From positions 1 to 35,609 of the forward strand of contig JAISBM010000010.1 of the NCBI GenBank assembly GCA_031266185.1: a stretch of DNA of 35,609 nt, written 5' to 3'. The position numbers were made by a program, and so were the translations under genes. Below the pieces are notes generated by a model that saw only the letters and a list, made by a program, of their open reading frames with translations, made no database searches and was not told where the DNA came from. This document shows positions 7,840 to 30,106 of this stretch, piece by piece. Source of the DNA: Endomicrobium sp. Its GTDB lineage: Bacteria; Elusimicrobiota; Endomicrobiia; Endomicrobiales; Endomicrobiaceae. Numbering within the stretch: position 1 is the first letter of the stretch; each line of letters begins with the position of its first letter.

Positions 7840-7861
7840 AATTAGGTAAGAGAGATGATAT

Positions 7862-8845: not shown

Positions 8846-8851
8846 GAAAAG

Positions 8852-10722: not shown

Positions 10723-11044
10723 ACTAATGGAAACTTTATCATTTATGGCATGAGGATGAAGTATTTAAGCAAATCGTAATAGTGAGAATGGATAAAGTCA
10801 GCGTAAAAGTTAGGGGCAGTAGAGATACCAGGAAGGTTTGGAATAGAGTATCCGTCTGAAAGCAGCAGCATATTGAGGTATTTGAGACGAACGATAAAAG
10901 AAGAATATTGTGATTAACATCAATTTATTTAGTTTGAAACGCAAAAATTTGTAAAATGTTATAATATCGGCGTAGTTAAAACGGGCAAGTCAGGTATTAG
11001 GATAATAATAGATTTTCAGAAATAGGGAGAAAGAAGATATTAAC
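10723..11044. other. Gap before rfbA with an unidentified coding remnant and a promoter
   Basis: No intact gene. At 10807-10917 a plus-strand frame without start codon reads KLGAVEIPGRFGIEYP and on to a TIKEEYCD stop. A different frame upstream (about 10728-10800) reads LYHLWHEDEVFKQIVIVRMD. They look like scraps of one decayed gene, but I do not recognise the family. The 3' part carries the candidate rfbA promoter. Confidence 0.4.
10934..10965 (+). promoter_or_regulatory. Candidate promoter for rfbA
   Basis: A perfect TATAAT at 10960-10965 lies 80 nt before the rfbA ATG. The best -35 match is TTGAAA at 10934-10939, giving a longer than ideal 20-nt spacer, so the -35 assignment is weak. The position, in a gap following a decayed gene, supports an independent transcription start here. 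Confidence 0.4.
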
Positions 11045-11980: not shown

Positions 11981-12246
11981 AAGTTTTTAGTGATACAAGA
12001 GGGTCTTTAATTGCCCTTGAACAAAATAAAAATATACATTTTAATGTTAAAAAAAGGGTGTGTGTAGTATATTTTAATACAAAAAAAGATATGCTAGGGG
12101 TTTTTCATGCACACAAAAATTTAGAACAAATACTCATTTGCATAAAGGGATCTTGCAAAATAAAAGTTGATGATGGGGGAAGTATTAAATTTTTTGATCT
12201 TCTTAGTCCCAATGTAGGGTTATATATAGGCACAATGGTATCGTAA
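11977..12246 (+). pseudogene. fdtA: Truncated copy of fdtA
   Basis: In a frame overlapping the rfbA stop, the sequence [19 protein letters not shown] through GVFHAHKNLEQILICIKG to [11 protein letters not shown] aligns almost residue for residue with positions 12 to about 97 of the intact FdtA at 30.1 kb. The first 11 residues are missing, and the protein ends where the intact copy continues [10 protein letters not shown] (TGG replaced by TCG, then TAA). The paired metal/catalytic histidines of HAHK are kept, but the C-terminal third of the cupin is gone, so a working isomerase is unlikely. The first internal start would be GTG or ATG well inside the domain. Confidence 0.88.
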
Positions 12247-12450
12247 AATTACGTATAATCCTTGTTATTGAGCAATTTGCTGAATCTAAAAGTAGAGTGT
12301 TTATAATGATGCTTGCTTTGAAGATCTTGGGAAATTGTTACAATCCACTGTTATACTAGCACTGTTCTCAATATTTTGGGAATTCTATTTGTTTTTTTGT
12401 TTAAAGATTTTACCAGTGTTCTAAAGGTTCTACTATTGAGGGAGGATTAA
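12247..12450 (+). other. Decayed membrane-protein tail
   Basis: No intact gene. The last stretch, in frame with a TAA at 12448, reads TVLNILGILFVFLFKDFTSV and LKVLLLRED, like the last membrane span and tail of a small membrane protein. Upstream the frame is broken. The family cannot be named. Confidence 0.3.
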
Positions 12451-12451
12451 T

Positions 12452-14353: not shown

Positions 14354-14423
14354 CTATAAACTAAATATGAAAAACACTATTTGATTATGATGTTACATTT
14401 CAAGAATAATATGGGGGATGAAT

Positions 14424-14775
14424 ATGATAGATTTGGCTGATTGTTGTAGAAGTACTTATGAAAAAATTCCAAAATATATAAAAAGATCTTTTTTATTAAT
14501 TTTTTTTAGTTCATTAGTTGTTTTTTCATTTAGCATTATTCATTATTTTTTAGGCCGCGAAGATTGGGGTGAGGCAGTCGTTCAAACAGGCTTATTTAAT
14601 TGGAATCTGGTCCGGGGTAGGATTTAAGCAAGCATTAGAATCAGTTAAAGATGCACTAGCCAAGGCAGAACCTTGGCCAGCCATAACATCAGTGCAGATA
14701 AAAAATGATATAATACTCGTAGTTGTAGATAAAAATGCTTTGGCAGAAGCAAAAACCTTGGTAAACTTAAATTAG
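14424..14775 (+). pseudogene. GtrII-like membrane glucosyltransferase with a large internal deletion
   Basis: Start ATG 14424, with a GGGGG Shine-Dalgarno 6 nt upstream (ATG 14418 is also in frame). The first 66 codons read STYEKIPKYIKRSFLLIFF through REDWGEAVVQTGLFNWN to VRGRI*. They align with about residues 70-134 of the intact protein at 18.3 kb (IPSLYKKSFLIIF, HDWGGVLFSREGLFDW). In the next frame, from about 14622, FKQALESVKDALAKAEPWP through IKNDIILVVVDKN to the stop at 14775 aligns with the last 50 residues of the same protein (IAIKDDIMLVVLNEEKL). About 430 codons between are missing and the junction shifts frame. It is a clean internal-deletion relic of a paralog. Confidence 0.85.
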
Positions 14776-14804
14776 AAAAAATCTTATGGTGCCAGGAGGG
14801 GGAT

Positions 14805-15578
14805 ATTAAAGTTTTAATACTAGCTGGGGGTTTAGGGACCAGATTATCTGAAGAAACTGAATTAAAGCCAAAACCAATGGTAGAAATTGGTGGACATCCA
14901 ATACTTTGGCATATAATGAAAATATATTCACATTATGGTTTTAATGATTTTGTAATTTTAACGGGTTATAAATCTCATATTATTAAGGACTATTTTATCA
15001 ATTATTATACAAGGTATTGTGACGTAACAGTTGACATGGCAGCTAATTTTGTAAAAATACATAAGACACGCCAAGAACCTTGGAAAGTTACAATGCTTTA
15101 TACAGGGCAAGAATCTATGACAGGGAGTAGAATCAAAAAAGCGCAAGAATATATAGGAAATGAACCTTTCATGTTAACTTATGGAGATGGAGTTGCAGAT
15201 GTTGATATTAATGCGCTTCTAACGTCTCATAAGAATTCTGAAAAAATTGCCACTATGACGACTGTGCAAATGCCAGGACGTTTTGGTGCTGTTATTATAA
15301 AAAACAACACAGTTACATCTTTTAACGAAAAATACCTTGGAGAAGAAGGCTGGATAAACGGAGGCTTTTTTGTATGTGAAAACAAAGTTTTTGATTATAT
15401 ATCTGCAAATGTAGATAATGTAATTTTTGAAAGAGACCCTTTAGAAAATTTAGCAAAAGAAGGACAATTAAACGCATATAAACATAATGGTTTTTGGCGG
15501 GCAATGGACAATTTGCGTGAAAAGAACTTATTAGATTCAATGTGGCACTCAAGCAAAGTTCCATGGAAGGTTTGGTGA
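14805..15578 (+). CDS. rfbF: Glucose-1-phosphate cytidylyltransferase with an apparent ATT start
   Basis: Makes CDP-glucose from glucose-1-phosphate and CTP. KVLILAGGLGTRLSEET and KPKPMVEIGGHPILWHIMK form the nucleotide-transfer site. FMLTYGDGVADVDI carries the metal-binding Asp, and GWINGGFFVCENK, HNGFWRAMDNLREKN and the final PWKVW are family signatures, so the protein is full length at about 258 residues. The expected ATG is replaced by ATT at 14805-14807. GGAGG (14795-14799) is 5 nt upstream, and no in-frame ATG, GTG or TTG precedes the glycine loop. The first internal ATG (14877) would delete that loop. So either ATT initiates, as in infC of E. coli, or the start was recently lost. A broken rfbG follows immediately. 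Confidence 0.88.
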   Translation: MKVLILAGGLGTRLSEETELKPKPMVEIGGHPILWHIMKIYSHYGFNDFVILTGYKSHIIKDYFINYYTRYCDVTVDMAANFVKIHKTRQEPWKVTMLYTGQESMTGSRIKKAQEYIGNEPFMLTYGDGVADVDINALLTSHKNSEKIATMTTVQMPGRFGAVIIKNNTVTSFNEKYLGEEGWINGGFFVCENKVFDYISANVDNVIFERDPLENLAKEGQLNAYKHNGFWRAMDNLREKNLLDSMWHSSKVPWKVW

Positions 15579-15690
15579 ATGGGTAATTCGCTAGTAATAC
15601 AAAAGCAAGAAAATTTTTACAGGCCATACAGAGTTTAAAGGTTCTTGGCTTTGTTTATGGCTTAAGTTTTTAGGTGTAGATGTTTTTTAA
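15579..15690 (+). pseudogene. rfbG: 5' fragment of rfbG (CDP-glucose 4,6-dehydratase)
   Basis: Directly after rfbF, an ATG at 15579 leads to a frame that breaks. From about 15598 the next frame reads YKSKKIFTGHTEFKGSWLCL and then WLKFLGVDVF*. This is the NAD-binding N-terminus of CDP-glucose 4,6-dehydratase; the intact copy at 22.7 kb has YKRKKIFVTGHTGFKGAWL. The glycine-rich motif has one Gly changed to Glu and one Val lost. The rest of the gene is absent, replaced by oppositely oriented sequence from about 15700. It preserves the ancestral rfbF-rfbG order. Confidence 0.85.
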
Positions 15691-15699
15691 AACCCGAAG

Positions 15700-16318
15700 A
15701 GGAATATATTCCATTAGAATAACTCTATCAAACGCTTTTTACATTCGATTCATAATGTGCCTTATCTTTCCTTAAAGAATCTCCTCTAAAGCATGCTTTA
15801 AACTTTGTATTAATGTTATTGCTTTATTTCGTCTAGTTCTAGTTGTGTAAAACTATTTCTAAAAAAAGCACCTGATGTATGTGCTATTATTTAGAGTAAA
15901 ATTCATAATCTATACTCTTTTCACCAAATATAGGTGATTTTTTTTCGCCATCATCTAGACGTGTATTTGTCGCATATAATGTAAATTCAGGATGAGTTTC
16001 AAGATAATCTTATTGCTGATTGCATTTTAGTAACACCAAGCCAATGATCATCCGGATCTAAAACTGTCCAATACTTAGTCTTTATGAGTTCATATCCTTT
16101 TATCGCAGTAGCAAGTAGTCTTAAGTTTTGTTTATTTTGTATAAATTTTATTAGGATATCTTTCAATATACCCTTGTATTATTTTCACACTATCATCTGT
16201 AGAACAATCATCAATAATAAGGACTTTAATCCAAATTTTACTTCCTGCGCTAAAACAGAATCTAAAGCACGTGAAACATACGGACCTTTATTGTAAACTG
16301 GCATGAATATGTTATTAG
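15700..16318 (-). pseudogene. GT2 glycosyltransferase remnant, inverted, many frameshifts
   Basis: Read on the minus strand from about 16318, NNIFMPVYNKGPYVSRALDS and VLAQEVKFG match the N-terminus of the intact glycosyltransferase at 33.9 kb (TVFMPVYNKELYIACALDS, VLAQEVNFG). After a frameshift come VLIIDDCSTDDSVKIIQ, then NLRLLATAIKGYELIKTKYW, TVLDPDDHWLGVTKMQSA, YLETHPEF, TRLDDGEKKSPIFG, IAHTSGAF, NTKFKACFRGDSL and SNGIY. Each is collinear with the intact protein's first 215 residues but in shifting frames with several stops. No start codon or full domain remains. It lies head to head with the metK remnant. It shows that a second copy of the 33.9-kb gene was once here in inverted orientation. 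Confidence 0.88.
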
Positions 16319-16359
16319 ATTTTACATTTGATTGACAAAGGAACGAAAATATTATATAA

Positions 16360-16841
16360 ATTTGTTTTCTGTATGGTGGACCAGCAGCATACACGGGCCT
16401 TACAGATAGGAATTAGTGGTTGATACCATGGGGTAATGGCAACCCACGTGTAGAGGGGAGCATTTTCATCAGGTAAGGGATTACACAAAGGTAGAGAACT
16501 GCTTGTTGTTATAGGGCAAGGTACATAGCAGAATATAGCCAGCAGCAGGATTTGCCAACAAGTGTACAGTTCGGCTTGCATATATCTTAAGTGTTACAGA
16601 ACCAGTGCCAGTAATGGTGGATACATATCGTTGTGGCAAGGTTTCCGGTATTGTTTTAGAACCTGCTGTAAAAGAGATATTTCCTCTGACGTCGAAAAAA
16701 GGTATTGTGGAATATTTACAGCTTTGCAGATCCATATATGGTCAGACAGCAGCTTATAGACATTTTGAGAGGAGGGAAAAAGATTTTACTTGGAAAGATG
16801 TAAATAAAGGTTCTGAGCTTAAAAAAGCAATGGAAATTTAG
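16360..16841 (+). pseudogene. metK: C-terminal remnant of S-adenosylmethionine synthetase
   Basis: From about 16360, YGGPAAYTGLTDRN matches the MetK motif IGGP--DTGLTGRK. Decayed text corresponding to the glycine-rich loop and the DRSAAYAARYVAKN helix follows in shifting frames (RARYIAEYSQQQ). From about 16605 the frame opens again: PVMVDTYRCGKVSG, then IVEYLQLCRSIYGQTAAYRH, FERREKDFTWKDVNKG and a KKAMEI stop. This is the standard MetK C-terminus (PVS-MVDTFGTGK, RPIY-QTAAYGHFGR, W---). Stops and frameshifts in the first half, and the absence of the N-terminal half, make it non-functional. A housekeeping gene fragment inside a glycan locus suggests a rearrangement breakpoint. Confidence 0.87.
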
Positions 16842-16867
16842 AATACTTTATCTGGGAAGGTATTAAT

Positions 16868-17968
16868 GTGATCATTCGAGCAAAGACAAAAGATTTATTC
16901 GAAGGCAAATCAATTTCTGAGAAACAAAGGCAAAACAGTAAGTTTAATTTATTTGAATTAGAATCAGGAAAAACTGAACTTAGATCATACCCTCGTCGAA
17001 TAGTATTAGAACTTACAAATGCCTGTAATCTAAGCTGTGTTATGTGTGGAAGAAATGCAGTAGACTTTTCTTTAACTCGATTTAGTATGGAAAATTTTTA
17101 TGCTTTAGAGCCATTATTTGATATAGTAGAAGAAGTTACTCTTATGGGTTGGGGTGAACCTACAGTTCATCCTAATTTTGAAGAAATGCTTAAAATCTTA
17201 GACAATCATTCGGTGCGCAAATATTTTTGTACTAATGGAATGCGTCTTAATAAGATAAAGGATGCTATATTTAATTACAATGTAGATGTTTTTGCTGTAA
17301 GTGTAGATGGAGCAACTACAAAAACCAACAGTCAAATAAGACGTGGTTCCGATATTCTAAAAATAAATTCATATCTCAAAGAAATTGTTTTGAAAAAAAA
17401 CCGTAAAAGCTTAAAATATCCATATATAAATTATGTCTTTTGCGCAATGAAACAAAATTTAGATGAACTGCCAGATTTGGTTAATATGGCGGCAGATGTT
17501 GGACTTGATGAGGTGAAGGTTGTTTTTTTAACTGCTTTTGATCAAAGTTTAGCAAGTCAAACTCTTTACGGTGAAGAAGAGAAGGTTCGCGAAGTTTTTA
17601 AAAAAACAGAAGAACGCGCACAAAAGTATGAAATACTTTTAAAACTTCCGTATATCACAAGCAGTGATCCTGCAGGGAATGCTCTGCATAGAGATTGTTT
17701 TGTTGCTTACAGAGATTTTTATTTAGGTTCAGATGGGTATGTTCGACCTTGCATGTCTACTTCGCAGAAATTTTTTAAATTTGATAAATATCGTAAATTT
17801 TTTGATATGTGGAATTCAGAAGAATTTAAAAAGCATCGTAAAAGTGTAAATACACCAAATATGCCCAATTCTTGTAAAAATTGTTATCAATCTTCTCATT
17901 GCAACTGGAATAATAAAAAATCTTATATCCAAATAAAGGAAGATTTTGCGCCCGATTGGAAGAGATAA
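16868..17968 (+). CDS. Radical SAM/SPASM domain protein
   Basis: A cytoplasmic iron-sulfur enzyme of 366 residues. LELTNACNLSCVMCGRNAV places CxxxCxxC at C53, C57 and C60 to bind the radical SAM [4Fe-4S] cluster. VTLMGWGEPTVHPNFEEM is the SAM-contacting GGE-like motif (WGEP). CTNGMRLN and VFAVSVDGATTKT follow the usual barrel order. The C-terminal part has HRDC, VRPC, then SCKNCYQSSHCNWN, a Cys array typical of a SPASM auxiliary cluster. Start GTG 16868 has GGGAAGG 7 nt upstream. It follows the metK remnant by 26 nt. Its substrate is unknown. In a polysaccharide locus it may act on a nucleotide sugar or on a protein-linked group, but that is inference. Confidence 0.85.
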   Translation: MIIRAKTKDLFEGKSISEKQRQNSKFNLFELESGKTELRSYPRRIVLELTNACNLSCVMCGRNAVDFSLTRFSMENFYALEPLFDIVEEVTLMGWGEPTVHPNFEEMLKILDNHSVRKYFCTNGMRLNKIKDAIFNYNVDVFAVSVDGATTKTNSQIRRGSDILKINSYLKEIVLKKNRKSLKYPYINYVFCAMKQNLDELPDLVNMAADVGLDEVKVVFLTAFDQSLASQTLYGEEEKVREVFKKTEERAQKYEILLKLPYITSSDPAGNALHRDCFVAYRDFYLGSDGYVRPCMSTSQKFFKFDKYRKFFDMWNSEEFKKHRKSVNTPNMPNSCKNCYQSSHCNWNNKKSYIQIKEDFAPDWKR

Positions 17969-18290
17969 ATAAATAACAAAGGTTCAAAACAACAGTTAGA
18001 TGTAAGGAAAGAATAAAAATGATAAGATAAAAGAAAGAGAATAATATATAAAATGTTCACTCATAAAAAGACTGAATGTGGGAATTAAATCGATAAGCTC
18101 AGGGCTTAATGATAAATTTAAGAAAGAGTCTGAAAGCTTTGTTAGATGCGAAATATGCATTGACTACAAATTTAAGTTCTTCAGCAAACTTGCTTGCGAT
18201 ATCTATCGGTTTTGACTTCACATAAGATTGGTGGCAGAAGATTAAATAAAGACGAAGAGTAGGTTATAACAACAGGAAAAGGGTATTTTT
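17969..18290. other. Gene-free gap before the GtrII-like gene
   Basis: No open frame of credible length or recognisable remnant on either strand. The composition is A+T-rich with many stops. A GGAAAAGGG stretch at its 3' end probably serves as the ribosome binding region of the next gene. I see no convincing terminator hairpin. Confidence 0.4.
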
Positions 18291-20141: not shown

Positions 20142-20579
20142 TTTGAAAATGAAGGATAGTTTATCATCTAAAAATAATTGTTAGGATATTATTATAACCA
20201 TTTTAAGTGTGCCCGCTATTTTGGCATAGAACGAGAGTATTTAATAAAAGTTAAAAAATGAAAAGGTTAGCTGAAATGGTGAATTTACAAAGTTGTATAG
20301 TTTAATTTTAGAGTGAAGGGAATTTTTCAAAAAAAATTCTCTTAGCAGTATCGGTGTATATTTGTTGTCCGAGAGACTTTAGACAAACAAAATTAAAGTG
20401 GGTTGTTAAGTTTAGTTATTTTTATAAATGTCTCTATACAAAAGAATATTTGGTATAGTGTTATAGTTAAGATTTGAGGAGAGTTAAATAATAGAGCTTT
20501 TAGTGTAGGAGCCTAACAAGTAATGTAAAAACAGATTTTTTCTTGAAAATTTATAAAAAGGGCAAACCATGGTATAAAA
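20142..20579. other. Gene-free stretch after the GtrII-like gene
   Basis: No intact gene and no remnant I can name in this 438-base part of an 821-base gap. Stops are frequent in all frames. The part nearest 20540 may contain badly decayed sequence of the rfbF copy that becomes recognisable from about 20580. Confidence 0.4.
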
Positions 20580-20763
20580 GATTTTGAGGAAAACTATAAA
20601 GATGGAGATTAAGTATCCTTGAACGTTCTCTATTGGAAGGATTGCTAAAGAAGGGAAGTTGAGAGCATTTAAACACAGTGGGTTTGATACACTTAGAGAT
20701 AAGATTGAAGTGACGGAGATGTGGCGGCGGCGTACACATCCATGGCATGGGCTTTGTGGTTAA
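20580..20763 (+). pseudogene. rfbF: 3' remnant of a second rfbF
   Basis: In two shifting frames the sequence reads ENYKDGD, then SILERSLLEGLLKKG, KLRAFKHSGFDTLRDKIEVT and EMWRRRTHPWHGLCG before TAA at 20761-20763. This tracks the C-terminus of glucose-1-phosphate cytidylyltransferase; the intact copy at 14.8 kb has FERDPLENLAKEGQLNAYKH, NGFWRAMDNLREKN, MWHSSKVPWKVW. The conserved GFW-x-MD has lost several residues (GFDTLRD). No nucleotide-binding half is left. Its position upstream of the intact rfbG (with a ThDP gene between) mirrors the rfbF-rfbG order of the other copy. The next 199 bases up to 20962 contain nothing recognisable. Confidence 0.82.
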
Positions 20764-20962
20764 TGAGATATAAATACATCATCACTTTGTGTTTGATGTG
20801 GGTTGGTAGGAATAGAAGGGTATGAAAGGGGCAGATTCATGCAATGTGAATGTGATATTGTTGCTATCAATCTTCTTTTGCTAAGTGTAACTTTGCCAGG
20901 TTGATAATAATTTTTTGTTTAAATGGAGAAGATAAGCCTTATAAATAAATTTATAGGTAAAT

Positions 20963-22663
20963 ATGACGACAGTATCTGAATATATTTTTGATTTTTTACA
21001 AAAAAAAGGTATTAATACAGTATTCATGGTATCCGGTAGTTCTGCTATGTGGCTTACTGATGCGCTAAAGCGTAAAGATAATCTAAAAGCTATTTGTAAT
21101 CAGCACGAACAAGTATGCGTTATGTCAGCGGATATATATGGCAGACTAAACAACACACCTGGTGTAGCGCTTGTTACCATAGGGCCTGGTGCTACTAATG
21201 CAATTACTGGCGTAGCAGGAGCTTGGACTGATTCAAGTCCTCTTATCGTTCTTTCTGGCAATGCAAGTTCGAAGTTACTTAAATATGAACAGGATACTGC
21301 TATAAGGCAGCATGGTACACAGAGTCTAGACTTATCTAATATAGTGTCTCACATAACAAAATATTTTGCTGTGATAATGCAGCCAGAAGAAACACGTTAT
21401 CATGTAGAACGTGCTTACTTTGAAGCTATGGAAGGACGGCGTGGACCTGTTTGGCTTGATGTGCCTGTAGATATTCAAAATAAACAAGTTCCAGAAAATA
21501 TGGAAAGATTTACTCCTCCTGTTACAAATTATGAGATTATTGATACAGTTACAATCAACAGACTGTTATCAAATAGCAAAAAGCCACTTATAATTGCTGG
21601 AGGAGGCGCGACACAAAATGAAATTACTACATTAAGCCACACTTTCTCTATTCCGGTGGTTACATCTAGGATGGGTATAGATAATATTGTATCATCTGAT
21701 TCTCTTTTCGTTGGACGTCCTGGCGCTTATGGAGATCGAGCTTCACATTTTGCTATTCAGCAGTGCGATTTGCTTTTGATACTGGGTTGTCGTTTATCGG
21801 TTTCTACCATCGGGTATTACCCGGTCAGATTAGGTTTAAATGCGATTAAAGTTCAAGTCGATGTAGATGCCAAAGAACTAGCCAAGACAGATGTTCCTGT
21901 TGATTACAAATTTTGTACAACTGTAGGTAAGTTTGTAGAAGCAGTTAAAAATATAAAATTAGATCTAAATCTAAAAGAATGGATAGAACATTGCACAGAA
22001 ATGCGAGTCAAGTATCCAGTCGTATTAGAAGAATACAAAAATAGAAACCCGCTGAATGCATATTATTTTACTCACTTGTTATCTGAACTTGTTCCAGACA
22101 ACACAGTAATTACCGTTGATACCGGTAGCGTTAGTAATATTGTTTCGCAAACGTGGAACTTAAAAAAAGGGCAGCGATATTTTATTTCAGGTGGTCTTGC
22201 TTGCATGGGATTTTGGGCAGGAGCAATAGGTTGTCTTGACAAGCCGGCGATAGCATTAACAGGTGATGGTGCGTGTGCAATGAATATACAAGAATTTGCC
22301 ACACTAAAATATTACAGATTGCCAATTAAAGTATTTGTGTATCAAAATAATGGATATATGTTAATTCGTCATAATCAGCATAACTATATGAATGACAGAT
22401 TCCTTGGTGTAGGACCCGATAGTGGAGTTCAAACACCTGATTATTGCAAGGTAGCGGGAGCGTTCGGTCTTCCATCTGTTCGGATCCATGCCGATGACGA
22501 TATTCAAAATAAAATAAATGAAGTGTTAACTACAAAAGGGCCTGTAATTTGCGAGGTAATGTTGGAAAATTTTGGAGAAATATCTCCTCGTATTGCGTCA
22601 CGAGTTATGCCAGATGGTAGTCTTAAAGCCTGTGAGTTTGATGATTTATTTCCATTTTTATAA
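20963..22663 (+). CDS. ThDP-dependent enzyme, acetolactate synthase-like (YerE-type candidate)
   Basis: A 566-residue thiamine-diphosphate enzyme with the full three-domain layout. The N-terminal PYR domain has FMVSGSSAMWL and a catalytic Glu (E49) in NQHEQVC. GPGATNAITGVAGAWTDSSP follows. The middle domain begins near NSKKPLIIAGGG, and the C-terminal PP domain carries GDGACAMN (about residue 434) with QNNGYML about 27 residues later, the ThDP/Mg motif. Enzymes of this class transfer an acetaldehyde unit from pyruvate to a keto acceptor. Lying 20 nt before rfbG, it could add a two-carbon branch to CDP-4-keto-6-deoxyglucose, as YerE does in yersiniose synthesis. True acetolactate synthase for amino acids is less likely in this setting. 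Confidence 0.85.
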   Translation: MTTVSEYIFDFLQKKGINTVFMVSGSSAMWLTDALKRKDNLKAICNQHEQVCVMSADIYGRLNNTPGVALVTIGPGATNAITGVAGAWTDSSPLIVLSGNASSKLLKYEQDTAIRQHGTQSLDLSNIVSHITKYFAVIMQPEETRYHVERAYFEAMEGRRGPVWLDVPVDIQNKQVPENMERFTPPVTNYEIIDTVTINRLLSNSKKPLIIAGGGATQNEITTLSHTFSIPVVTSRMGIDNIVSSDSLFVGRPGAYGDRASHFAIQQCDLLLILGCRLSVSTIGYYPVRLGLNAIKVQVDVDAKELAKTDVPVDYKFCTTVGKFVEAVKNIKLDLNLKEWIEHCTEMRVKYPVVLEEYKNRNPLNAYYFTHLLSELVPDNTVITVDTGSVSNIVSQTWNLKKGQRYFISGGLACMGFWAGAIGCLDKPAIALTGDGACAMNIQEFATLKYYRLPIKVFVYQNNGYMLIRHNQHNYMNDRFLGVGPDSGVQTPDYCKVAGAFGLPSVRIHADDDIQNKINEVLTTKGPVICEVMLENFGEISPRIASRVMPDGSLKACEFDDLFPFL

Positions 22664-22683
22664 AAGGAAGGACAACTGCAACG

Positions 22684-23760
22684 ATGAGTATAAAGAAAGC
22701 CAGTCAGAAAAATAAAGAATTCTATAAAAGGAAAAAAATTTTTGTGACCGGGCATACAGGTTTTAAAGGAGCGTGGCTTATAGCAGTGCTCCATGAAGTC
22801 GATGCAGATACTATGGGTTATGCGCTTGCAGCTGAACCGGGATCTTTGTTTGAGAAAATTGATGGGAGCTCACTAATAAAGAGTGTCATTGGCGATGTAA
22901 GAGACTTTAATAAATTAAAAGAAGCGCTATGTAGCTTTAATCCTGAGATTGTGATTCATTTAGCGGCTCAAGCGAATGTAAATGATTGCTTTAATAATCC
23001 AAAATATACTTACGAAACGAATTTAATGGGAACCGTTAATTTGTTTGAGGCTATTCGTGCTTGCGAAAGTGTTAAAAGCGTTTTAGTAGTCACAACAGAT
23101 AAAGTCTATGAAAATAGGGGAGACGGAGGAGCGTATAATGAAAAAGATAAACTTGGCGGAATTGAGCCATATTCAAGCAGTAAAGCATGTATGGAATTTA
23201 TTACCGATACTTACAAACACTCTTATTTGCTAACAGATAAAAGGCATGTTGGTGTTTCAACAGCTAGGGCAAGCAATGTAATTGGAGGTGGGGACCACGT
23301 TCAAGCACGACTAATCCCATCAATCCTTAATTCATTTGTGCGAAACAAAGCTGTAGAGCTGCGAAATCCCGATCAGTTTCGACCATGGCAATCGGTATTA
23401 GATGCGTTGAATGGATATCTCTCTATTGCTAGATTGACATATGAAGCACCGGAAAGATATTCAAGTCAATGGAACATAGGTCCATTAAAAAAAGGAATAC
23501 GAACAGTTCTTGAAGTTGTAAGAAAAATGCAACACTATTATTACAAACGAGATGTCGGTTATGTGAAAACCAAGACTTTTAGTGTAGTTGAATCTAAAAC
23601 ATTAGGATTGGATATAACAAAATCATTAGAGCAACTTGATTGGGAACCGGAATTATCCCTAGATCAGATGTTGCGTGACTTGGTTGAATTTTTTAAACAA
23701 CAACAGGTAGGAGAGTCTGAACAAAGTATTCTAATGAAGCAAATACGCAAATTTTTTTGA
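22684..23760 (+). CDS. rfbG: CDP-glucose 4,6-dehydratase
   Basis: Converts CDP-glucose to CDP-4-keto-6-deoxyglucose. KIFVTGHTGFKGAWLIAVLH is the distinctive NAD-binding loop of this branch (GHTGFKG rather than GGAGFIG). VIHLAAQANVNDCFNNP, VVTTDKVYENR (catalytic Thr-Asp-Lys) and EPYSSSKACMEF (catalytic Tyr/Lys) follow. ARASNVIGGGDHVQARLIPS and FRPWQSVLDALNGYL are also family-specific. At 358 residues it is full length. The GGAAGG Shine-Dalgarno is 12 nt from the ATG. It starts 20 nt after the ThDP gene. It is the only complete rfbG in the window and depends on the rfbF at 14.8 kb for substrate. Confidence 0.94.
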   Translation: MSIKKASQKNKEFYKRKKIFVTGHTGFKGAWLIAVLHEVDADTMGYALAAEPGSLFEKIDGSSLIKSVIGDVRDFNKLKEALCSFNPEIVIHLAAQANVNDCFNNPKYTYETNLMGTVNLFEAIRACESVKSVLVVTTDKVYENRGDGGAYNEKDKLGGIEPYSSSKACMEFITDTYKHSYLLTDKRHVGVSTARASNVIGGGDHVQARLIPSILNSFVRNKAVELRNPDQFRPWQSVLDALNGYLSIARLTYEAPERYSSQWNIGPLKKGIRTVLEVVRKMQHYYYKRDVGYVKTKTFSVVESKTLGLDITKSLEQLDWEPELSLDQMLRDLVEFFKQQQVGESEQSILMKQIRKFF

Positions 23761-23779
23761 TTGGATATGAGGGGCTAAC

Positions 23780-24108
23780 ATGGAGAAGAAGAATTACTCA
23801 AATAAGTCTGCAGTCCTTTTTGACAAGGTAACCAAAGATTACGACGAAGAGAAGCGCAGGTCTCTTAAGCTGTCAAAATCTTTTGACATAAAGTTATTTT
23901 ATAAGTATAAATGTAAGATTGTTAAGAATATTTATGCAAACTTCCTTGTTTTTACGGATGTGGCATTTCAGAGGAGTCGTTGAAAGTGGCAAGAACACAA
24001 TATTGTTATTGTAAATTTGATTGCATTAATATTTCTAGTGATATTGAAAGCATGTTATCTTGGTTGTCGTTGGGAGCTCAGTATTATTGTTTGGGAGAGA
24101 AATTTTAA
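23780..24108 (+). pseudogene. N-terminal fragment of a SAM-dependent methyltransferase, frameshifted
   Basis: Starting at ATG 23780, SAVLFDKVTKDYDEEKRRSL and KSFDIKLFYKYK look like the N-terminal cap of a class I sugar methyltransferase. The frame is lost near 23950. In the neighbouring frame FYGCGISEESLKVARTQYCY, then FDCINISSDIESM gives motif I (GCGISEESL) and the following acidic strand. It ends at a TAA (24106-24108) just after SLGAQYYCLGEKF, well before the catalytic half. The remaining two thirds of the methyltransferase are missing. The downstream cupin gene begins 3 nt later, consistent with a deletion that joined the two. Confidence 0.75.
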
Positions 24109-24111
24109 ACT

Positions 24112-24684
24112 ATGCCAATATCCATATCTTCTACAAATTTTCAAGGACTCGCGTTAATAACAGCGCATCATTTTAATGATGGTGCTTTCTTTCTAACAAA
24201 GTATTACCGAAAGACTGATTTTGAGCGATATGGACTACCATGTGATTATACCGAAAGTAGTGTTATTTCATATAAAAAAGGAACACTTCGTGGATTGCAT
24301 TATCAAAACCAGCCTTCGCAAGCTAAATTAATATATATTATATCTGGCTCAATTTTTTTAGTTGCATTAGATTTGAGATATAATTTGACTACTTTTGGTC
24401 ACTATCAAAGCTGGATATTTAATGCAAATGAGAATAAAGCTATATTTTTCCCTGAGCTGGTTGCTATGGGCATTCTTGCATTACAAGATACAATTATCTC
24501 GTTTAATTGTACAGGTGAGTATATATCGGAAAAATGCAGTGGAATAATTTGGAGTGACAGGGAGTTAAATATCCCATGGCCGATTGATAGGGTAAAAAGC
24601 CCTATTTTATTATCAGAAAAAGATAAAAACTTGCAGACATTTAAAGAGTATAAAAAAATAGGGCTCATTAATATAGCAAATTGA
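24112..24684 (+). CDS. RmlC-like cupin sugar epimerase with altered active site
   Basis: A 190-residue member of the dTDP-4-dehydrorhamnose 3,5-epimerase fold. SVISYKKGTLRGLHYQNQPS has the family's RGLHYQ with the catalytic His, LIYIISGSIFLVALDLR the central cupin strand, and GIIWSDRELNIPWPI the C-terminal signature. Two family-invariant positions differ: the usual GFAHGF region reads LVAMGI (His to Met), and the catalytic Tyr of the LYK segment appears as Phe (ISFNCTGEY). The protein may therefore catalyse a different epimerisation, a single epimerisation, or be failing. It follows rfbG, so a CDP-4-keto sugar is its likeliest substrate. The residue equivalences are from memory of the family. 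Confidence 0.72.
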   Translation: MPISISSTNFQGLALITAHHFNDGAFFLTKYYRKTDFERYGLPCDYTESSVISYKKGTLRGLHYQNQPSQAKLIYIISGSIFLVALDLRYNLTTFGHYQSWIFNANENKAIFFPELVAMGILALQDTIISFNCTGEYISEKCSGIIWSDRELNIPWPIDRVKSPILLSEKDKNLQTFKEYKKIGLINIAN

Positions 24685-24812
24685 ACTTGCAGTATTTTAC
24701 AGTGTGTTGTAAATTGTAGGTTTTGGTGAAATATATCGAGTTGAGAAAATGAGAGAAGCTATGATAATTATCAAGGTGTTGCCATTTGATAGAAAAAGGG
24801 AGGGGATGATTA

Positions 24813-25865
24813 ATGTCATTAGAAAATCGTGTTTGTTTGCTTGATTGTACTTTGCGTGACGGAGGTCAGGGTATAGAAATTGCTGCAAAAAAAGGATATG
24901 ATAGAACATTTTCGCAAACAGAAAGAACTAGAATGACAGAATTGCTTGAAAAATCAAATATTGAATATATAGAAGTCGGGGTAGTGAAGAATTCAATTGA
25001 TGATCTTCATAAATATTCCATCTATAAGTCTATTGAGGATGTATCAAATTCCATTCCGCAAAAAACTGTAAAGTCCTCAGAATATGCAGCAATGTTTGTA
25101 GGTCCGGACACTCCATATGGAGATTTGCCAGAATATAAAGAAGGAATGTGTGAATGTATACGAGTAATGCTTAGGTATTCAGAGTTAAAAAAATCATTGG
25201 ACTTTTGCAAGGTATTGTCAAAAAAGGGATATAAAGTTTTTGTGCAACCCACAGTAACTGCGCGTTTTACAAATGATGATTTAAATTTAGTTTTAGATGC
25301 CGCAAACGACATAAACGCTCATGCTGTATATTTTGTTGACTCTTACGGCTTCTTCAATAGTGATGATATTAAACAGTATTTTGAGCTTTTTGACAAAAAA
25401 CTTAACAAAGGGATAAAGGTTGGTTTTCACGCGCACAACAACTTAAGTCTTGCTTTACCAAATGCAATGGAGTTGCTAAATATTGAATCAGAGCGAAAAA
25501 TTATTATCGACTCCTGTTTGCTTGGTATGGGGCAGGGCGCAGGCAATCTTCAAACTGAACTGATAAGTATATATTTGAATGAAAATTATGGTAAAGAGTA
25601 CGATTATTGTGCTATACTTGATGCATGTGAATTAATAGACAAATTTTCTGATGAGATGCTTCGTGGAAACTCACTTAAAACAACCATTCCCGCAGTATGC
25701 AAAGTTGCTTATCAAAATTCGTATGAATTGCGAGATAATTTAAAGTTTTCGTACTCAGATATTTATCGTATATTAAGCGATATTCCAGATGAAATTTTAG
25801 AAATTAAATATAGATTCACACAAAATGACCTAAAAAAACTAATCGAATATTTTAGAACAAAATGA
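24813..25865 (+). CDS. DRE-TIM metallolyase aldolase (HMG-CoA lyase / 4-hydroxy-2-oxovalerate aldolase-like)
   Basis: A 350-residue (beta/alpha)8-barrel aldolase. LLDCTLRDGGQGIEI (residues 9-23) has the Arg15-Asp16 catalytic and metal pair, and VGFHAHNNLSLAL (about residue 204) gives the HxH metal ligands. IIDSCLLGMGQGAGNLQTEL matches the conserved DxSxxGMGxGAGN of 4-hydroxy-2-oxovalerate aldolases. Enzymes of this type make or break a C-C bond to pyruvate. The preceding GGGAGGGG gives a strong Shine-Dalgarno. Its TGA overlaps the next ATG (ATGA), so it is translationally coupled to the split ThDP pair. Its place between sugar enzymes suggests a role in building or using a branched or extended sugar; the exact reaction is unknown. 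Confidence 0.85.
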   Translation: MSLENRVCLLDCTLRDGGQGIEIAAKKGYDRTFSQTERTRMTELLEKSNIEYIEVGVVKNSIDDLHKYSIYKSIEDVSNSIPQKTVKSSEYAAMFVGPDTPYGDLPEYKEGMCECIRVMLRYSELKKSLDFCKVLSKKGYKVFVQPTVTARFTNDDLNLVLDAANDINAHAVYFVDSYGFFNSDDIKQYFELFDKKLNKGIKVGFHAHNNLSLALPNAMELLNIESERKIIIDSCLLGMGQGAGNLQTELISIYLNENYGKEYDYCAILDACELIDKFSDEMLRGNSLKTTIPAVCKVAYQNSYELRDNLKFSYSDIYRILSDIPDEILEIKYRFTQNDLKKLIEYFRTK

Positions 25866-26374
25866 AAATTTCTGATTATATAATTGATTATCTTATTAAA
25901 CAAGGCGTAAGTCATATTTTTGGCATACCAGGAAGTGTTGTTCTTGATTTTGTTAACTCCGCAAGCAAAAGAGAAGAAATTAAGCTTCATTTAAATTTTC
26001 ATGAACAGTGCTCAGCGTATGCAGCAGTTGGATTTTCACAAGTAAGCGGAAAATTATGCGTTGCTTATTCAACAAAGGGTCCGGGACTGACAAATATGAT
26101 TACAGCAATAGCTGATGCATATTATGATTCGATACCTTCAATATTTATTACAAGTCACTCTAAAAAATTCTTTACTTCTAATAAACGTTCCATTGCAAAA
26201 CAAGAATTTGATTCCATAGAACTTGTTAAACAGATTACTAAATATTCTGTTCGTATTGAATCGTGTGAAATGGTAAAAGAAGCACTTGAATATACTTGTA
26301 ATATTGCAATAACCAAACGCCCAGGACCTGTTTTTCTTGATTTTCTCTCAGGAGTGTTTAGCAATGAAATTTAA
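25862..26374 (+). CDS. ThDP enzyme, PYR-domain subunit (separate gene)
   Basis: A 170-residue protein equal to only the N-terminal domain of acetolactate synthase-type enzymes. IKQGVSHIFGIPGSVVLDF begins the domain, and FHEQCSAYAAVGFSQVSGK holds the catalytic Glu (E48). STKGPGLTNMITAIADAY and RPGPVFLDFLSGVF (domain end) follow. It stops at a natural domain boundary, without the 30-residue linker seen in the fused enzyme at 21 kb. It overlaps the aldolase stop by 4 nt and the next gene's ATG by 11 nt. Separately encoded PYR and PP domains occur in sulfopyruvate decarboxylase (ComD/ComE), so this may be a true two-subunit enzyme. A frameshift of a formerly fused gene is the alternative. Confidence 0.8.
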   Translation: MKISDYIIDYLIKQGVSHIFGIPGSVVLDFVNSASKREEIKLHLNFHEQCSAYAAVGFSQVSGKLCVAYSTKGPGLTNMITAIADAYYDSIPSIFITSHSKKFFTSNKRSIAKQEFDSIELVKQITKYSVRIESCEMVKEALEYTCNIAITKRPGPVFLDFLSGVFSNEI

Positions 26375-27452
26375 ATCACTTATTTATGAAATAAATGAAA
26401 ATTTATCAAATTCTAAACGCCCTGTAATCCTTATCGGCGATGGGATTAGGCAATCGGGTACAATCGACGATTTTCTTGGATTAGCAAAGAAAATTGAAAT
26501 TCCTGTTTTGTCTAGTCGATTTGCTCAGGATATAATTTCTGCTGCAGAAAATTTTTACGGATATATTGGCTCTCATGGAACACGTTATTCTAACAGGATT
26601 CTTTATGAGTCGGACACTATCATTTCTATTGGCAATCGGCTTGATTTTGAGCCAACATCTGCAACATTCGGCAGTATAGCAGAAAAGATAAAGATACGCA
26701 TAGATTGCGATAAAAACGAATTCTCGGACAAGTTGCCAAACTGCAAGAGTTTTTTATACGATTTACGCGAAATAATGCCGGAGTTAGCGCAAAATATATC
26801 TTCACACAGTAAAAAAAGTTGGAATAAATTTTGTAACGAATTGAAAACAGAACTATTTGCAAGCGACATAGCTTACCCATTAACAGCAATAACAAAAATC
26901 CTGCAAAGTATTTCAAAAGACTCAATTATTGTAAGTGATGTAGGTAATAATGAGCTATATCTATGCCGTGCTTACGAATATGTTCAAATAAAAAATCGTA
27001 AGATTCATTCAAAGTCATTCGGCACAGTAGGCAGTTCTTTACCTAAAGCAATTGGTGCTTATTATGCCAAAAATGTACCTGTAATTTGCTTTACTGGTGA
27101 TCAAGGGCTAATGTTTAACAGTCAAGAACTCCAGTTTATTATGGCAAACAAATTACCAATAAGTATAATATTAATCAATAACCAATCTCTAAATATGATA
27201 AAGGACGAACAGACGAGAAGAAAAATAGATTTTATTCATTCAACAATAGAATCGGGATACTCAGTGCCAAATTTTGAGAAAGTTGTACGTGCTTATGGAA
27301 TGATGCATCATTATATGTATGAAGACCGAACAGATTTTAGTGATGTATTAAAGTTAGGAATGGTGCTGATTGAAGTAGTTGCTGAACCTGATGAATATAA
27401 AAATCCGTATTTGCCAAAAGGTAATAAATGTTGGGACTTTGTAACAAAATGA
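26364..27452 (+). CDS. ThDP enzyme, middle and PP-domain subunit (separate gene)
   Basis: A protein of about 362 residues with the rest of the ThDP enzyme. RPVILIGDGIRQSGTIDDF opens the middle domain, and GSHGTRYSNRILYESDTIIS, IGNRLDFEP is its nucleotide-fold part. The PP domain has VSDVGNNELYLCR, KSFGTVGSSLPKAIGAYYA, FTGDQGLMFNSQELQF (GDQG instead of GDG, about residue 245) and ILINNQSLNMI, the paired ThDP/Mg ligands. GGAG 10 nt upstream of ATG 26364 supports genuine initiation, although the frame is open further upstream. With the preceding gene it reconstitutes a complete active site. Its stop overlaps the next start (ATGA). Likely a carboligase acting on a pyruvate-derived donor in this cluster. 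Confidence 0.8.
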   Translation: MKFKSLIYEINENLSNSKRPVILIGDGIRQSGTIDDFLGLAKKIEIPVLSSRFAQDIISAAENFYGYIGSHGTRYSNRILYESDTIISIGNRLDFEPTSATFGSIAEKIKIRIDCDKNEFSDKLPNCKSFLYDLREIMPELAQNISSHSKKSWNKFCNELKTELFASDIAYPLTAITKILQSISKDSIIVSDVGNNELYLCRAYEYVQIKNRKIHSKSFGTVGSSLPKAIGAYYAKNVPVICFTGDQGLMFNSQELQFIMANKLPISIILINNQSLNMIKDEQTRRKIDFIHSTIESGYSVPNFEKVVRAYGMMHHYMYEDRTDFSDVLKLGMVLIEVVAEPDEYKNPYLPKGNKCWDFVTK

Positions 27453-28495
27453 AAAAATCAAATTTTTTATCCAACAGAATAATTCGAGAAGATATGGATG
27501 ACATATATGCAAGGTATAATTTTTGGGAACGACTAAATAACAAAACTGTAATGGTAACAGGTTCGTATGGAATGTTGGCTTCTTACTTTGTATATTTCTT
27601 AATTTATCTGAATGAAGTTAAAGGATTAAATATAAAAATAATTTCACTTTCAAGAAATGAGGACAAATTCTATAAGAGGTTTGGTGTTTATGCCGAGCGC
27701 GAATATTTAACAAACCTCACTGACGATATAAACAAACCATTTAATATAGCATGTGAAATTGATTTTATTATCCACGCTGCAAGTTTGGCAGATCTTCAAG
27801 ATTGCAGTACAAACCCTATAGGTGTTGCTTTACCAAATGTGTTAGGAACGTACAATTTATTGGAACTTGCTAATGAAAAAAATGTTGAAAGTTTTTTGTT
27901 TTTCAGCTCTATAGCCATTTACGGCGAGACAAGTAAAAATATAGTTTCTGAAAAAGACTATGGGGTAATCGACCCTCTTGATATTTTCTCTTCGTACAGC
28001 GAGTCTAAAAAAATGGGAGAAACTTTGCTTAATTGCTATTTAAATCAGTATTGTATACCTGTAAAGATAGTCCGTTTTTTTTGCGGAATAGGTCCAACGC
28101 TGGATTTAGAGCATGGGAACAACGCTTTATGCGATTTTTGCAGAAATGCGTTAAACGGTCAAAATATAGAAATAAAAAGCGAAGGTTTAGCAAAACGCTC
28201 ATATTGTTATATTGCAGACACTACTGCAGCGGAATTTAAAGTTTTGCTTGATGGGAATAATGAAGCATATAACGTTTGCAATACTGATGAATTTATATCA
28301 ATCAGAGAGTTGGCTGAACTTATAGCAAATATTGTCGATTGTAATGTAATAAGTACGCATTACGATGAAAAACACATTGAACCTCCAAGATACTCAAATT
28401 ATAACAACAGTAAACTGCGCAAACTCGGTTGGGAATGTAAATATTCAATTGAAAATGGATTCAGACGAATTATACAAAGTCACCTTGAAAAATAA
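27449..28495 (+). CDS. NAD-dependent epimerase/dehydratase (extended SDR)
   Basis: An extended short-chain dehydrogenase of about 348 residues acting on a nucleotide sugar. KTVMVTGSYGMLASYFVYF is the dinucleotide fold (GSYGML), IIHAASLADLQDCSTNPI the second strand region, FFSSIAIYGETS the catalytic Ser, and SSYSESKKMGETLL the Tyr-x-x-x-Lys pair. IGPTLDLEHGNNALCDF and SEGLAKRSYCYIADTTAAEF are usual for UDP/CDP-sugar epimerases or reductases. I set the start at ATG 27449, which overlaps the previous stop as ATGA; an in-frame ATG at 27428 is less likely. It continues the aldolase/split-ThDP operon and may reduce or epimerise the branched product. A fragment of a relative lies at 29.7 kb. Confidence 0.85.
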   Translation: MKKSNFLSNRIIREDMDDIYARYNFWERLNNKTVMVTGSYGMLASYFVYFLIYLNEVKGLNIKIISLSRNEDKFYKRFGVYAEREYLTNLTDDINKPFNIACEIDFIIHAASLADLQDCSTNPIGVALPNVLGTYNLLELANEKNVESFLFFSSIAIYGETSKNIVSEKDYGVIDPLDIFSSYSESKKMGETLLNCYLNQYCIPVKIVRFFCGIGPTLDLEHGNNALCDFCRNALNGQNIEIKSEGLAKRSYCYIADTTAAEFKVLLDGNNEAYNVCNTDEFISIRELAELIANIVDCNVISTHYDEKHIEPPRYSNYNNSKLRKLGWECKYSIENGFRRIIQSHLEK

Positions 28496-28751: not shown

Positions 28752-29705
28752 ATGAATGTTAGAAACAAAAAAATTAATATTTTAATTCCCTGTTATAATG
28801 AGGAAGGCAATATCCTGGATATATATAATACTGTAAAAGATATTTTGGATAAAAAGTTGCCTTCTTATAATTATGAGATAATATTTATTGACAACTTTTC
28901 GACAGATACTACTCGTATTTTAATTCGTAACATCTGTGACAGAGACCCCAAAGTAAAGGCAATCTTTAACATACGAAATTTTGGTTCTGCAACCTCTTCA
29001 TACTACGGCATTTGTCAAACAACCGGTGATTGTACCATTTTGTTATCTGCTGATTTTCAGGAGCCGATTGAACTAATTTCAACCTTTGTCAACGAATGGG
29101 AAAAGGGCTATAAGCTTGTTATTGGCATAAAACATAAAAGCAAAGAAAACCCAATAAAACGACAGTTGCGGACTCTTTACTATAAGTTATTTAAAAAAAT
29201 ATCTGAAAATGTGGATCAAATAGAACATTTTGATGGGTTTGGGTTATATGATAAATCATTTGTTGATGTAATGCGTAATTTACATGAACCGACCCCATAT
29301 ATAAAGACTATTGTTGCAGAATTCGGGTCTAAACATAAATATGTTTATTACACTCAGCAAAGAAGAAAGAGTGGCAAGTCTCATATAAGTTGGTATACGT
29401 TGTACGATGATGCAATGCTGACTTTCACAACTTACACAAAAATTGGTCCACGTATTGCTGTTTTGGTTGGATTTATTATTTCAATTATTTCATTTGGTCT
29501 CTTTTTTTTGTATTTAATAATTAAGTTAATATACTGGGACTTGTTCATAATTGGACAAGCTCTTTTAATAATAGGAATGGTTTTTTTAGGTGCATTACAA
29601 CTTTTTTTTATCGGACTGCTTGGCGAATATGTTATGTCAATCAACGCTCGTGTAATGAACCGACCCCTTGTTATTGAGGAAGAAAGAATAAATTTTGAGG
29701 AATAG
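28752..29705 (+). CDS. GtrB/ArnC-like polyprenyl-phosphate glycosyltransferase
   Basis: A 317-residue GT2 protein of the DPM1/ArnC/GtrB branch. INILIPCYNEEGNILDIYNT, YEIIFIDNFSTDTT and ILLSADFQEPIELI (donor site, usually xxDLQDPPE) are present. FDGFGLYDKSFVD and TQQRRKSGKSHISWY are recurrent features of GtrB. Two C-terminal membrane spans (about residues 238-262 and 268-295) precede LLGEYVMSINARVMNRPLVI, the canonical end. It would put a sugar, possibly the product of the preceding cluster, onto undecaprenyl phosphate. It starts 256 nt after the epimerase; that gap has no recognisable gene. This is the second enzyme of its kind in the window. Confidence 0.88.
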   Translation: MNVRNKKINILIPCYNEEGNILDIYNTVKDILDKKLPSYNYEIIFIDNFSTDTTRILIRNICDRDPKVKAIFNIRNFGSATSSYYGICQTTGDCTILLSADFQEPIELISTFVNEWEKGYKLVIGIKHKSKENPIKRQLRTLYYKLFKKISENVDQIEHFDGFGLYDKSFVDVMRNLHEPTPYIKTIVAEFGSKHKYVYYTQQRRKSGKSHISWYTLYDDAMLTFTTYTKIGPRIAVLVGFIISIISFGLFFLYLIIKLIYWDLFIIGQALLIIGMVFLGALQLFFIGLLGEYVMSINARVMNRPLVIEEERINFEE

Positions 29706-29708
29706 TCC

Positions 29709-29970
29709 ATGAAAAAACTTGTTATTACTGGAGCAACAAGTATGATTGGGTTTGCTCTTGCAAAATGTGCAGTAAGTCTGGGTATGGAAGTTTTATGTAT
29801 TGTTAGAAAAAGCTCTAAAAGTTAAATTTAAAAATGTTGTAAATCCAAATTATATTCGCTCATCGTCAACGAATGCATCTCTAAATACCGATAAAGTTAA
29901 GAAGCTTGGGTGGAGACAGAAAATTCATATAGAGGAAGGATTTAAACGTATGATTAAAAGTTATAGATAA
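29709..29970 (+). pseudogene. NAD-dependent epimerase remnant with internal deletion
   Basis: Starting 3 nt after the glycosyltransferase, ATG 29709 begins KKLVITGATSMIGFALAKCA, VSLGMEVLCIVRKSSKS*, the first 38 residues of an extended SDR. In another frame, NVVNPNYIRSSSTNASLNTD followed by KVKKLGWRQKIHIEEGFKRM, IKSYR* gives the C-terminal 45 residues, similar to the end of the epimerase at 27.4 kb (NNSKLRKLGWECKYSIENGF). About 230 codons between them are absent. It is a deletion relic of the same shape as the GtrII copy at 14.4 kb. Confidence 0.85.
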
Positions 29971-30064
29971 ATTCACCTGACTTGACCGTTTTAAGGAAAA
30001 AGTAAGATTTTATTCATAAAAAAGTCAGTTAGAGGCAATACAAACTGTCAAGTCAAGTGAATTT
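29969..30064. repeat. 96-bp element with 23-bp inverted repeats (MITE-like or stem-loop)
   Basis: The arm at 29969-29991 (AAATTCACCTGACTTGACC...) and the arm at 30042-30064 are reverse complements with 2 mismatches in 23 positions; 50 nt separate them. No ORF fits inside. The element starts in the stop codon of the epimerase remnant and ends 42 nt before fdtA. It could be a small non-autonomous transposable element, a recombination scar or an RNA stem-loop. I did not see a second copy in the window. Confidence 0.7.
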
Positions 30065-30106
30065 GTCAGTTTAGTAGAGCTTCAATGGTCAAAGTGGAAA
30101 AACAAA

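Follow-up and report, generated by a model that had tools for sequence, protein, structure and literature searches.

How would a bacterial sugar locus use two thiamine diphosphate (ThDP) carboligases and a pyruvate-type aldolase when no intact gene for the 3-deoxygenating enzyme DdhC (RfbH) accompanies them? This question is raised by a 35,609-nucleotide contig of Endomicrobium sp. (JAISBM010000010.1), referred to below, at its full length, as the window. An earlier note made from its letters alone listed seven genes at 20963–28495 and proposed for them a cytidine diphosphate (CDP)-sugar pathway with a split ThDP carboligase; all seven are open reading frames whose domains were confirmed by profile matches. 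We judge it slightly better than even that a five-gene module, rfbF-rfbG-aldolase-ThDP2-SDR (SDR, short-chain dehydrogenase/reductase), produces a CDP-bound 6-deoxyhexose with a carbon branch and does so without DdhC. Its probable role is to attach to a sugar of the cell surface a carbon chain made from pyruvate, with no 3-deoxygenation. Only tentatively do we extend this to the wider proposal that a rare, horizontally spread module makes undescribed 3-hydroxylated, long C-4-branched 6-deoxyhexoses by means of a ligase clade with a GDQ motif, obligately two-subunit in the window.

All window features discussed here lie on the forward strand. RfbF, glucose-1-phosphate cytidylyltransferase (14805–15578), scores 331 bits against TIGR02623 (cut-off 300) when read from 14877 and 380 bits, over residues 1–255 of 255, when read from 14805; its apparent start is an ATT behind a strong AGGAGG-type site, and no in-frame ATG, GTG or TTG was found upstream of it. 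It is the sole complete rfbF copy in the parent genome, which is 52% complete. RfbG (22684–23760) scores 361.5 bits against TIGR02622 and passes the curated cut-off of 278.45, so it is a true CDP-glucose 4,6-dehydratase. The DRE-TIM (HMGL-like) pyruvate-type aldolase, of clade II (24813–25865; PF00682, 74 bits), is followed by ThDP2 in two genes. The first encodes the pyrimidine-binding (PYR) half, with the catalytic Glu in an HEQ motif (25862–26374; PF02776, TPP_enzyme_N alone, 104 bits), and the second the central (M) and pyrophosphate-binding (PP) domains, with GDQ instead of GDG (26364–27452; PF00205 and PF02775, TPP_enzyme_M+C). The SDR (27449–28495; PF01370, 104 bits) is a probable reductase or epimerase of the branched product. 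As the earlier note had read, the last four genes are joined by overlaps: ATGA between the aldolase and PYR genes (25862–25865); 11 nucleotides, ATGAAATTTAA, between PYR and PP (26364–26374), with AGGAG about 9 nucleotides upstream of the true ATG of PP at 26364; and ATGA between PP and SDR if the SDR, whose frame opens at 27428, starts at 27449 like its homologues.

Relatives came from a scan in which each species was represented by one genome, and from later searches; loci carry L-numbers and genomes G-numbers (L040 lies in G026, L080 in G004 and L242 in G872). The order rfbF-rfbG-aldolase-ThDP2, sometimes with one gene between, is found in L083, L084, L096, L214, L216 and L242, and with the SDR added it recurs in gut Firmicutes, Spirochaetia, one Campylobacteraceae genome and another genome of the phylum to which the window belongs. 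The individual arrangements are rfbF-rfbG-GT8-aldolase-ThDP2-SDR-DXS-like (L083), rfbF-rfbG-aldolase-ThDP2-DXS-like-GT2 (L084), rfbF-rfbG-(383 aa)-aldolase-ThDP2-(248 aa)-DXS-like (L216) and rfbF-rfbG-(254 aa)-aldolase-ThDP2-split transketolase-SDR-GT2 (L214), GT2 and GT8 being glycosyltransferase families. In L086 (rfbF-GT2-SDR-aldolase-ThDP2-DXS-like-rfbG), rfbF and rfbG flank the aldolase-ThDP2 pair. The Spirochaetia locus L087 has the exact window order, ThDP1-rfbG-cupin-aldolase-ThDP2-SDR with rfbF upstream. L085 reaches a contig end with aldolase-ThDP2-SDR, the part of the core order seen in a Prevotellaceae genome; ThDP2 has a more distant aldolase in L096 (Campylobacteraceae) and L116 (Spirochaetia), and in L088 and L215 the aldolase adjoins rfbFG without ThDP2. 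SDRs adjoin aldolase-ThDP2 in L083, L085, L086, L096, L116, L214 and L242, and in both L096 and L214 the module has a split transketolase as its partner. The neighbourhood search suggested by the earlier note thus found the aldolase and ThDP2 beside rfbF and rfbG in several phyla, although ThDP2 is fused there. By its neighbourhoods, the set of aldolase, split ThDP pair and SDR is a CDP-sugar module.

The minimal core is seen in G872, a 93% complete genome of the window's phylum, where L242 consists of rfbF-rfbG-aldolase-ThDP2-SDR with no further carboligase within the 20 kb read. This cluster is the main support for the proposed module because no other recognised gene in it could perform the carbon-carbon step. 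The module is rare: an ortholog-level aldolase (score >440 bits) was present in 2 of 397 Lachnospiraceae, 3 of 297 genomes of the class Spirochaetia and 2 of 341 genomes sampled from the window's phylum. A tblastn search of plasmids returned only a distant Desulfobaculum aldolase, beside rfbH and a split transketolase.

The module is also associated with the loss of RfbH. The remark in the earlier note that no DdhC-like gene is visible holds for an intact ddhC/rfbH, which was found neither in the window nor in its parent genome; decayed pieces are present at 18118–18286 and ~20568–20605. Eleven genomes with this aldolase (G150–G156, G229, G214, G724 and G872, including those of L083–L088, L096, L214, L215, L216 and L242) gave no true RfbH match, the best hits being aminotransferase paralogs of ~370 residues at <170 bits versus 477–1049 bits in the positive controls G004, G026 and G157. 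Among loci uncut by contig ends, rfbH accompanies ThDP2 in one and is missing from seven, while loci with the aldolase and only a ThDP1-like enzyme have it in 18 cases and lack it in two (Fisher p 2e-4, a guide only, as the rows are related). An intact DdhC, which a YerE-like enzyme with a 3,6-dideoxy acceptor would have in its locus or genome, was not found in the window, with its fragments, or in the 52% complete parent genome. Because relatives of the aldolase and ThDP2 adjoin rfbF and rfbG in genomes without RfbH, a DdhC-free route from CDP-4-keto-6-deoxyglucose, as the earlier note had supposed, appears plausible.

The analysis shows gene content and order, the link with RfbH loss, the clades and the motifs; the substrates, product and reaction order given next are inferred. 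RfbF would form CDP-glucose and RfbG CDP-4-keto-6-deoxyglucose. The aldolase would condense pyruvate with an aldehyde to a 4-hydroxy-2-oxo acid, which ThDP2 would decarboxylate; it would then join the acyl group to the ketone at C-4, in the manner of ErwE in erwiniose synthesis, here with the 3-hydroxyl retained. The SDR would reduce the branch ketone or epimerise the product, and the GT2 enzyme at 28752–29705 (PF00535), of a kind recurrent in these clusters (L084, L086, L116 and L214), may transfer it. The window and L087 add a cupin and ThDP1, other loci have a DXS-like enzyme or a split transketolase in that place, and G872 has nothing; ThDP1 or its DXS-like or transketolase counterpart might perform a second C2 addition, supply the aldehyde or act as an alternative ligase. 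ThDP1 was rejected as the sole partner of the aldolase, since most loci of clade II have ThDP2 behind the aldolase and most have no ThDP1.

The combination of a made-to-order 2-oxo acid donor with a YerE-like enzyme is already known. ErwE of the erwiniose pathway (Pectobacterium atrosepticum) couples 4-hydroxy-2-oxo acids to a CDP-4-keto sugar, and the YerE-like MMAR_2332 of the caryophyllose pathway (Mycobacterium marinum) has an ErwE-like donor preference (PMC12247030); the verdict of the earlier note that the product is not covered by known pathways was therefore too strong. The module would share with ErwE the acceptor type, the YerE-like ThDP enzyme and the donor. It differs in that the ErwE acceptor is a 3,6-dideoxy sugar, whereas the window module has no DdhC and no acetaldehyde dehydrogenase, an aldolase of another clade and a ThDP enzyme of a separate GDQ clade. 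With MMAR_2332 and caryophyllose it would have in common a long hydroxylated C-4 branch and a YerE-like enzyme, but caryophyllose is 3,6-dideoxy (PMC5706390), unlike the proposed product. YerE, of yersiniose A synthesis, likewise carboligates at C-4 of a CDP-4-keto sugar, and ThDP1 belongs to this broad group; YerE differs in using pyruvate as the donor, building a C2 branch without an aldolase and accepting the DdhC/DdhD product. Split-gene transketolases have been proposed for miharamycin and amipurimycin in Streptomyces secondary metabolism (PMC12247030); in the present module a split transketolase is an optional partner, absent from the window. A link to bradyrhizose was dropped, as neither an aldolase nor an rfbF or ThDP gene is mentioned in PMC4743980. 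We found no description of the DdhC-free version or of the GDQ clade. The long-branch sugar pathways known so far are few and all start from 3,6-dideoxy acceptors; if confirmed, one that dispenses with DdhC and occurs in several phyla would widen known bacterial surface-sugar chemistry and add a new clade of ketone-accepting ThDP enzymes with its own donor-making aldolase. The five-gene set of G872 is small enough for rebuilding in vitro.

ThDP2 has the PYR-M-PP domains of YerE-like enzymes on two chains and keeps HEQ, but its second motif is GDQ (GDV in L087) versus GDG in YerE-like and acetolactate enzymes and CDG in JanthE. In a 63-row tree the combined window halves join the fused ThDP2 proteins in a clade of their own (100/100), whose placement relative to PpYerE and acetolactate synthases varies with midpoint rooting and long branches. 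Both halves retain the catalytic and metal-binding residues and a similar identity to the relatives; the PYR half is 56% identical to the corresponding part of the fused L087 protein, and the AlphaFold model of the PP half (predicted local distance difference test, pLDDT, 78.7) has the ThDP fold, with JanthE (PDB 8rph) as the best solved match. JanthE, with its own altered ThDP motif, is fused and ~25% identical to the PP half. Because every relative is fused, the split appears private to this genome on present data; it was rejected as a shared feature of the pathway, contrary to the earlier note. A sequencing frameshift is disfavoured as its cause, since ~15 residues of the PYR-M linker are gone rather than displaced into another frame; ~20 C-terminal residues are missing as well.

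The aldolase is a member of the DRE-TIM superfamily, with R15, D16 and the HxH pair H206 and H208 invariant (D16, H206 and H208 as metal ligands) and a TIM-barrel fold. Its clade in the tree comprises 10 rows including the window (SH-aLRT 99); the G872 sequence was found later and stands outside that tree. The model (pLDDT 89.5) matches first the uncharacterised 3dxi and then 4-hydroxy-2-oxovalerate aldolases, and sequence matches rank likewise. With DmpG it shares the fold, the metal-binding residues and, likely, pyruvate enolate chemistry, but it scores 77 bits against TIGR03217 (cut-off 286), lacks the His that follows the DG motif in DmpG-type sequences and has no DmpF partner gene. No acylating acetaldehyde dehydrogenase was found among the window frames near the aldolase; one is present in L040, L041, L045 and L076.

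Several observations weigh against the DdhC-free module. The proposal assigns no clear purpose to the presence of two ThDP ligases in the window and in L087. The GDQ motif looks odd for such a ligase, and we found no assay of any ThDP2-clade enzyme. Besides being split, the window ThDP2 has a fairly long branch (1.04, others 0.49–1.08), and the window rfbF begins with ATT. Among 52 alignment columns that are otherwise invariant, the window aldolase deviates at 6, more than any relative in that comparison, which may reflect divergence or relaxed constraint. The genome of L116 combines the module with RfbH, the sole such case, and in a parent genome little more than half complete an rfbH gene could possibly lie elsewhere.

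The strongest competing explanation, which we regard as possible rather than probable, is that the window holds a decaying locus: decay would account for the lost rfbH, for the broken ThDP2 and for the ATT with which the only rfbF copy begins, no branched sugar would be made here, and the module would work elsewhere. ThDP2 also departs at 12 of 97 otherwise invariant columns, again the most of any relative, and these departures, like those of the aldolase and the lost linker and C-terminal residues, fit decay. Fragments of rfbH (two), rfbG, rfbF, SDR and glycosyltransferase genes between the intact ones point the same way. On the other side, the main frames are all open, the PP gene comes with a separate AGGAG and ATG and overlaps the PYR stop, both ThDP2 halves keep their catalytic and metal-binding residues, and the rfbH-free arrangement exists elsewhere, in L087. 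Absence of a 'WGYS' motif from the window aldolase is weakened as proof of decay, the Trp being absent from G872 too.

Selection on the neighbouring genes also speaks against decay. ThDP1, a YerE/ErwE-like carboligase with N, M and C ThDP domains (20963–22663), precedes rfbG, and an RmlC-like cupin follows it (24112–24684; PF00908, 128 bits). The cupin, a probable 3- and/or 5-epimerase of a 4-keto sugar, scores 133 bits against TIGR01221, under the cut-off of 155.75, and can be called RmlC-like only. ThDP1 has HEQ and GDG motifs and the PYR-M-PP architecture of the decarboxylase superfamily; its best solved relative is JanthE (295 bits, next 225), and its orthologs are in L080 (86%) and L087 (77%). 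In the 63-row tree it groups with these (100/100), then with the L040, L041 and L043 enzymes (100/99), within a large clade that contains JanthE and lies away from acetolactate synthases. A cupin ortholog adjoins ThDP1-rfbG in both L080 and L087. Against L080, from the congener G004, dN/dS is 0.13 for ThDP1, 0.18 for RfbG and 0.155 for the cupin (dS ~0.63), showing purifying selection on all three, as an average over both branches that gives no date for the rfbH loss.

The fragments themselves record the history of the locus. A piece of rfbH with a broken frame (18118–18286, residues 67–120) matches the L040 RfbH at 62% and 57% in blastx, and an rfbG N-terminal piece immediately 3' of rfbF (15598–15684) matches the L040 and L041 RfbG at 67–70%; like these, two SDR fragments at 29706–30106 resemble the L040 cassette. 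The start of a second rfbH, of L080 type, survives at 20568–20605, the remainder being lost. Here the 88% DNA identity covers L080 positions 233–444, with L080 rfbH beginning at 408; homology breaks at 20605, ~12 rfbH codons in, and restarts at 20942 ahead of ThDP1. An rfbF C-terminal fragment (20638–20745; blastx 45% to RfbF residues 215–254) occupies the lost rfbH site. Glycosyltransferase, rfbG, rfbH, rfbF and SDR debris fills the gaps 14354–14804, 15579–16867, 17969–18290, 20142–20962 and 29706–30106. Because the gene gaps hold such decayed fragments, the locus has been repeatedly rearranged, and because the fragments match the rfbH-type cassettes of L040 and L080, the window is a mosaic in which the partly decayed remains of an older locus with rfbH are combined with a cassette that has none, a concrete case of locus rearrangement that was not visible to the earlier reader. 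With its split ThDP2, decayed fragments and ATT start, the window copy may be failing, and we put the chance that it is active at about even.

That an ordinary 3,6-dideoxy long-branch pathway of the erwiniose or caryophyllose type operates, with rfbH in the missing half of the 52% complete genome, we consider improbable. In G004 the order is rfbH-ThDP1-rfbG-cupin, with rfbH directly preceding a block 83–85% identical in DNA to that of the window and a matching flank upstream of rfbH, and L116 carries the module with rfbH. Yet the module, or at least its core, is present in L087 and in G872, and RfbH was found nowhere in either genome, and the other clade II genomes searched are also without it. 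For comparison, the congener G026 has rfbF-rfbG-rfbH-acylating acetaldehyde dehydrogenase-DmpG aldolase-ThDP-GT2-SDR-SDR (L040; dehydrogenase and DmpG named from sequence), a cassette that looks erwiniose-type by inference.

We give little credence to a further alternative, in which pyruvate is attached by the aldolase straight to the CDP-sugar at its C-4 ketone and the 2-oxo acid branch so formed serves ThDP2 as donor or as acceptor. Shewanellose has at C-4 a three-carbon branch resembling pyruvate, and ThDP2 resembles acetolactate synthases, which take 2-oxo acids, but we found no such aldolase described in the literature consulted, and from ErwE a free 4-hydroxy-2-oxo acid would be the expected donor (PMC12247030). 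That the enzymes are catabolic ones, or belong to branched-chain amino-acid metabolism, and lie in a sugar locus by chance, the outcome that would have undone the earlier note, is highly improbable and was rejected: acetolactate synthase and 4-hydroxy-2-oxovalerate aldolase are the top NCBIfam names, but every score is well short of its curated cut-off (the aldolase as above; against TIGR00118, cut-off 538, ThDP1 293, PYR 121 and PP 145 bits), other ThDP-enzyme genes lie elsewhere in the genome, one grouping with the E. coli acetolactate synthase, and the relatives reside in CDP-sugar loci.

Other gene combinations were seen alongside. In L080 a second, fused ThDP enzyme (7391–9154) lies behind a probable NUDIX gene and is no ThDP2 ortholog in the tree. 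Six loci of the window's phylum (L069, L070, L072, L073, L074 and L081) have, next to rfbF-rfbG-rfbH, a YerE-like ThDP enzyme together with an HpcH/HpaI aldolase and a HAD phosphatase (the domains were confirmed in L070 and L072 only), which may be a further way of making the donor. L219 and L221 pair an aldolase with a 535-residue ThDP enzyme; the L219 pair lies beside rmlA/rmlB and a cupin rather than rfbFG, which suggests equivalent chemistry on a deoxythymidine diphosphate sugar. A related aldolase occurs in about a quarter of the Lachnospiraceae genomes sampled; most of these frames have ~530 residues, with an extra C-terminal part of ~190 residues (L186–L213 and others). In L156 a 1054-residue frame with an aldolase domain (9998–13162) lies between two split transketolase pairs, adjoining rfbF-rfbG-rfbH. 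Within the window, a radical-SAM-type protein (16868–17968; CxxxCxxC-like motif, by eye) lies between decayed stretches.

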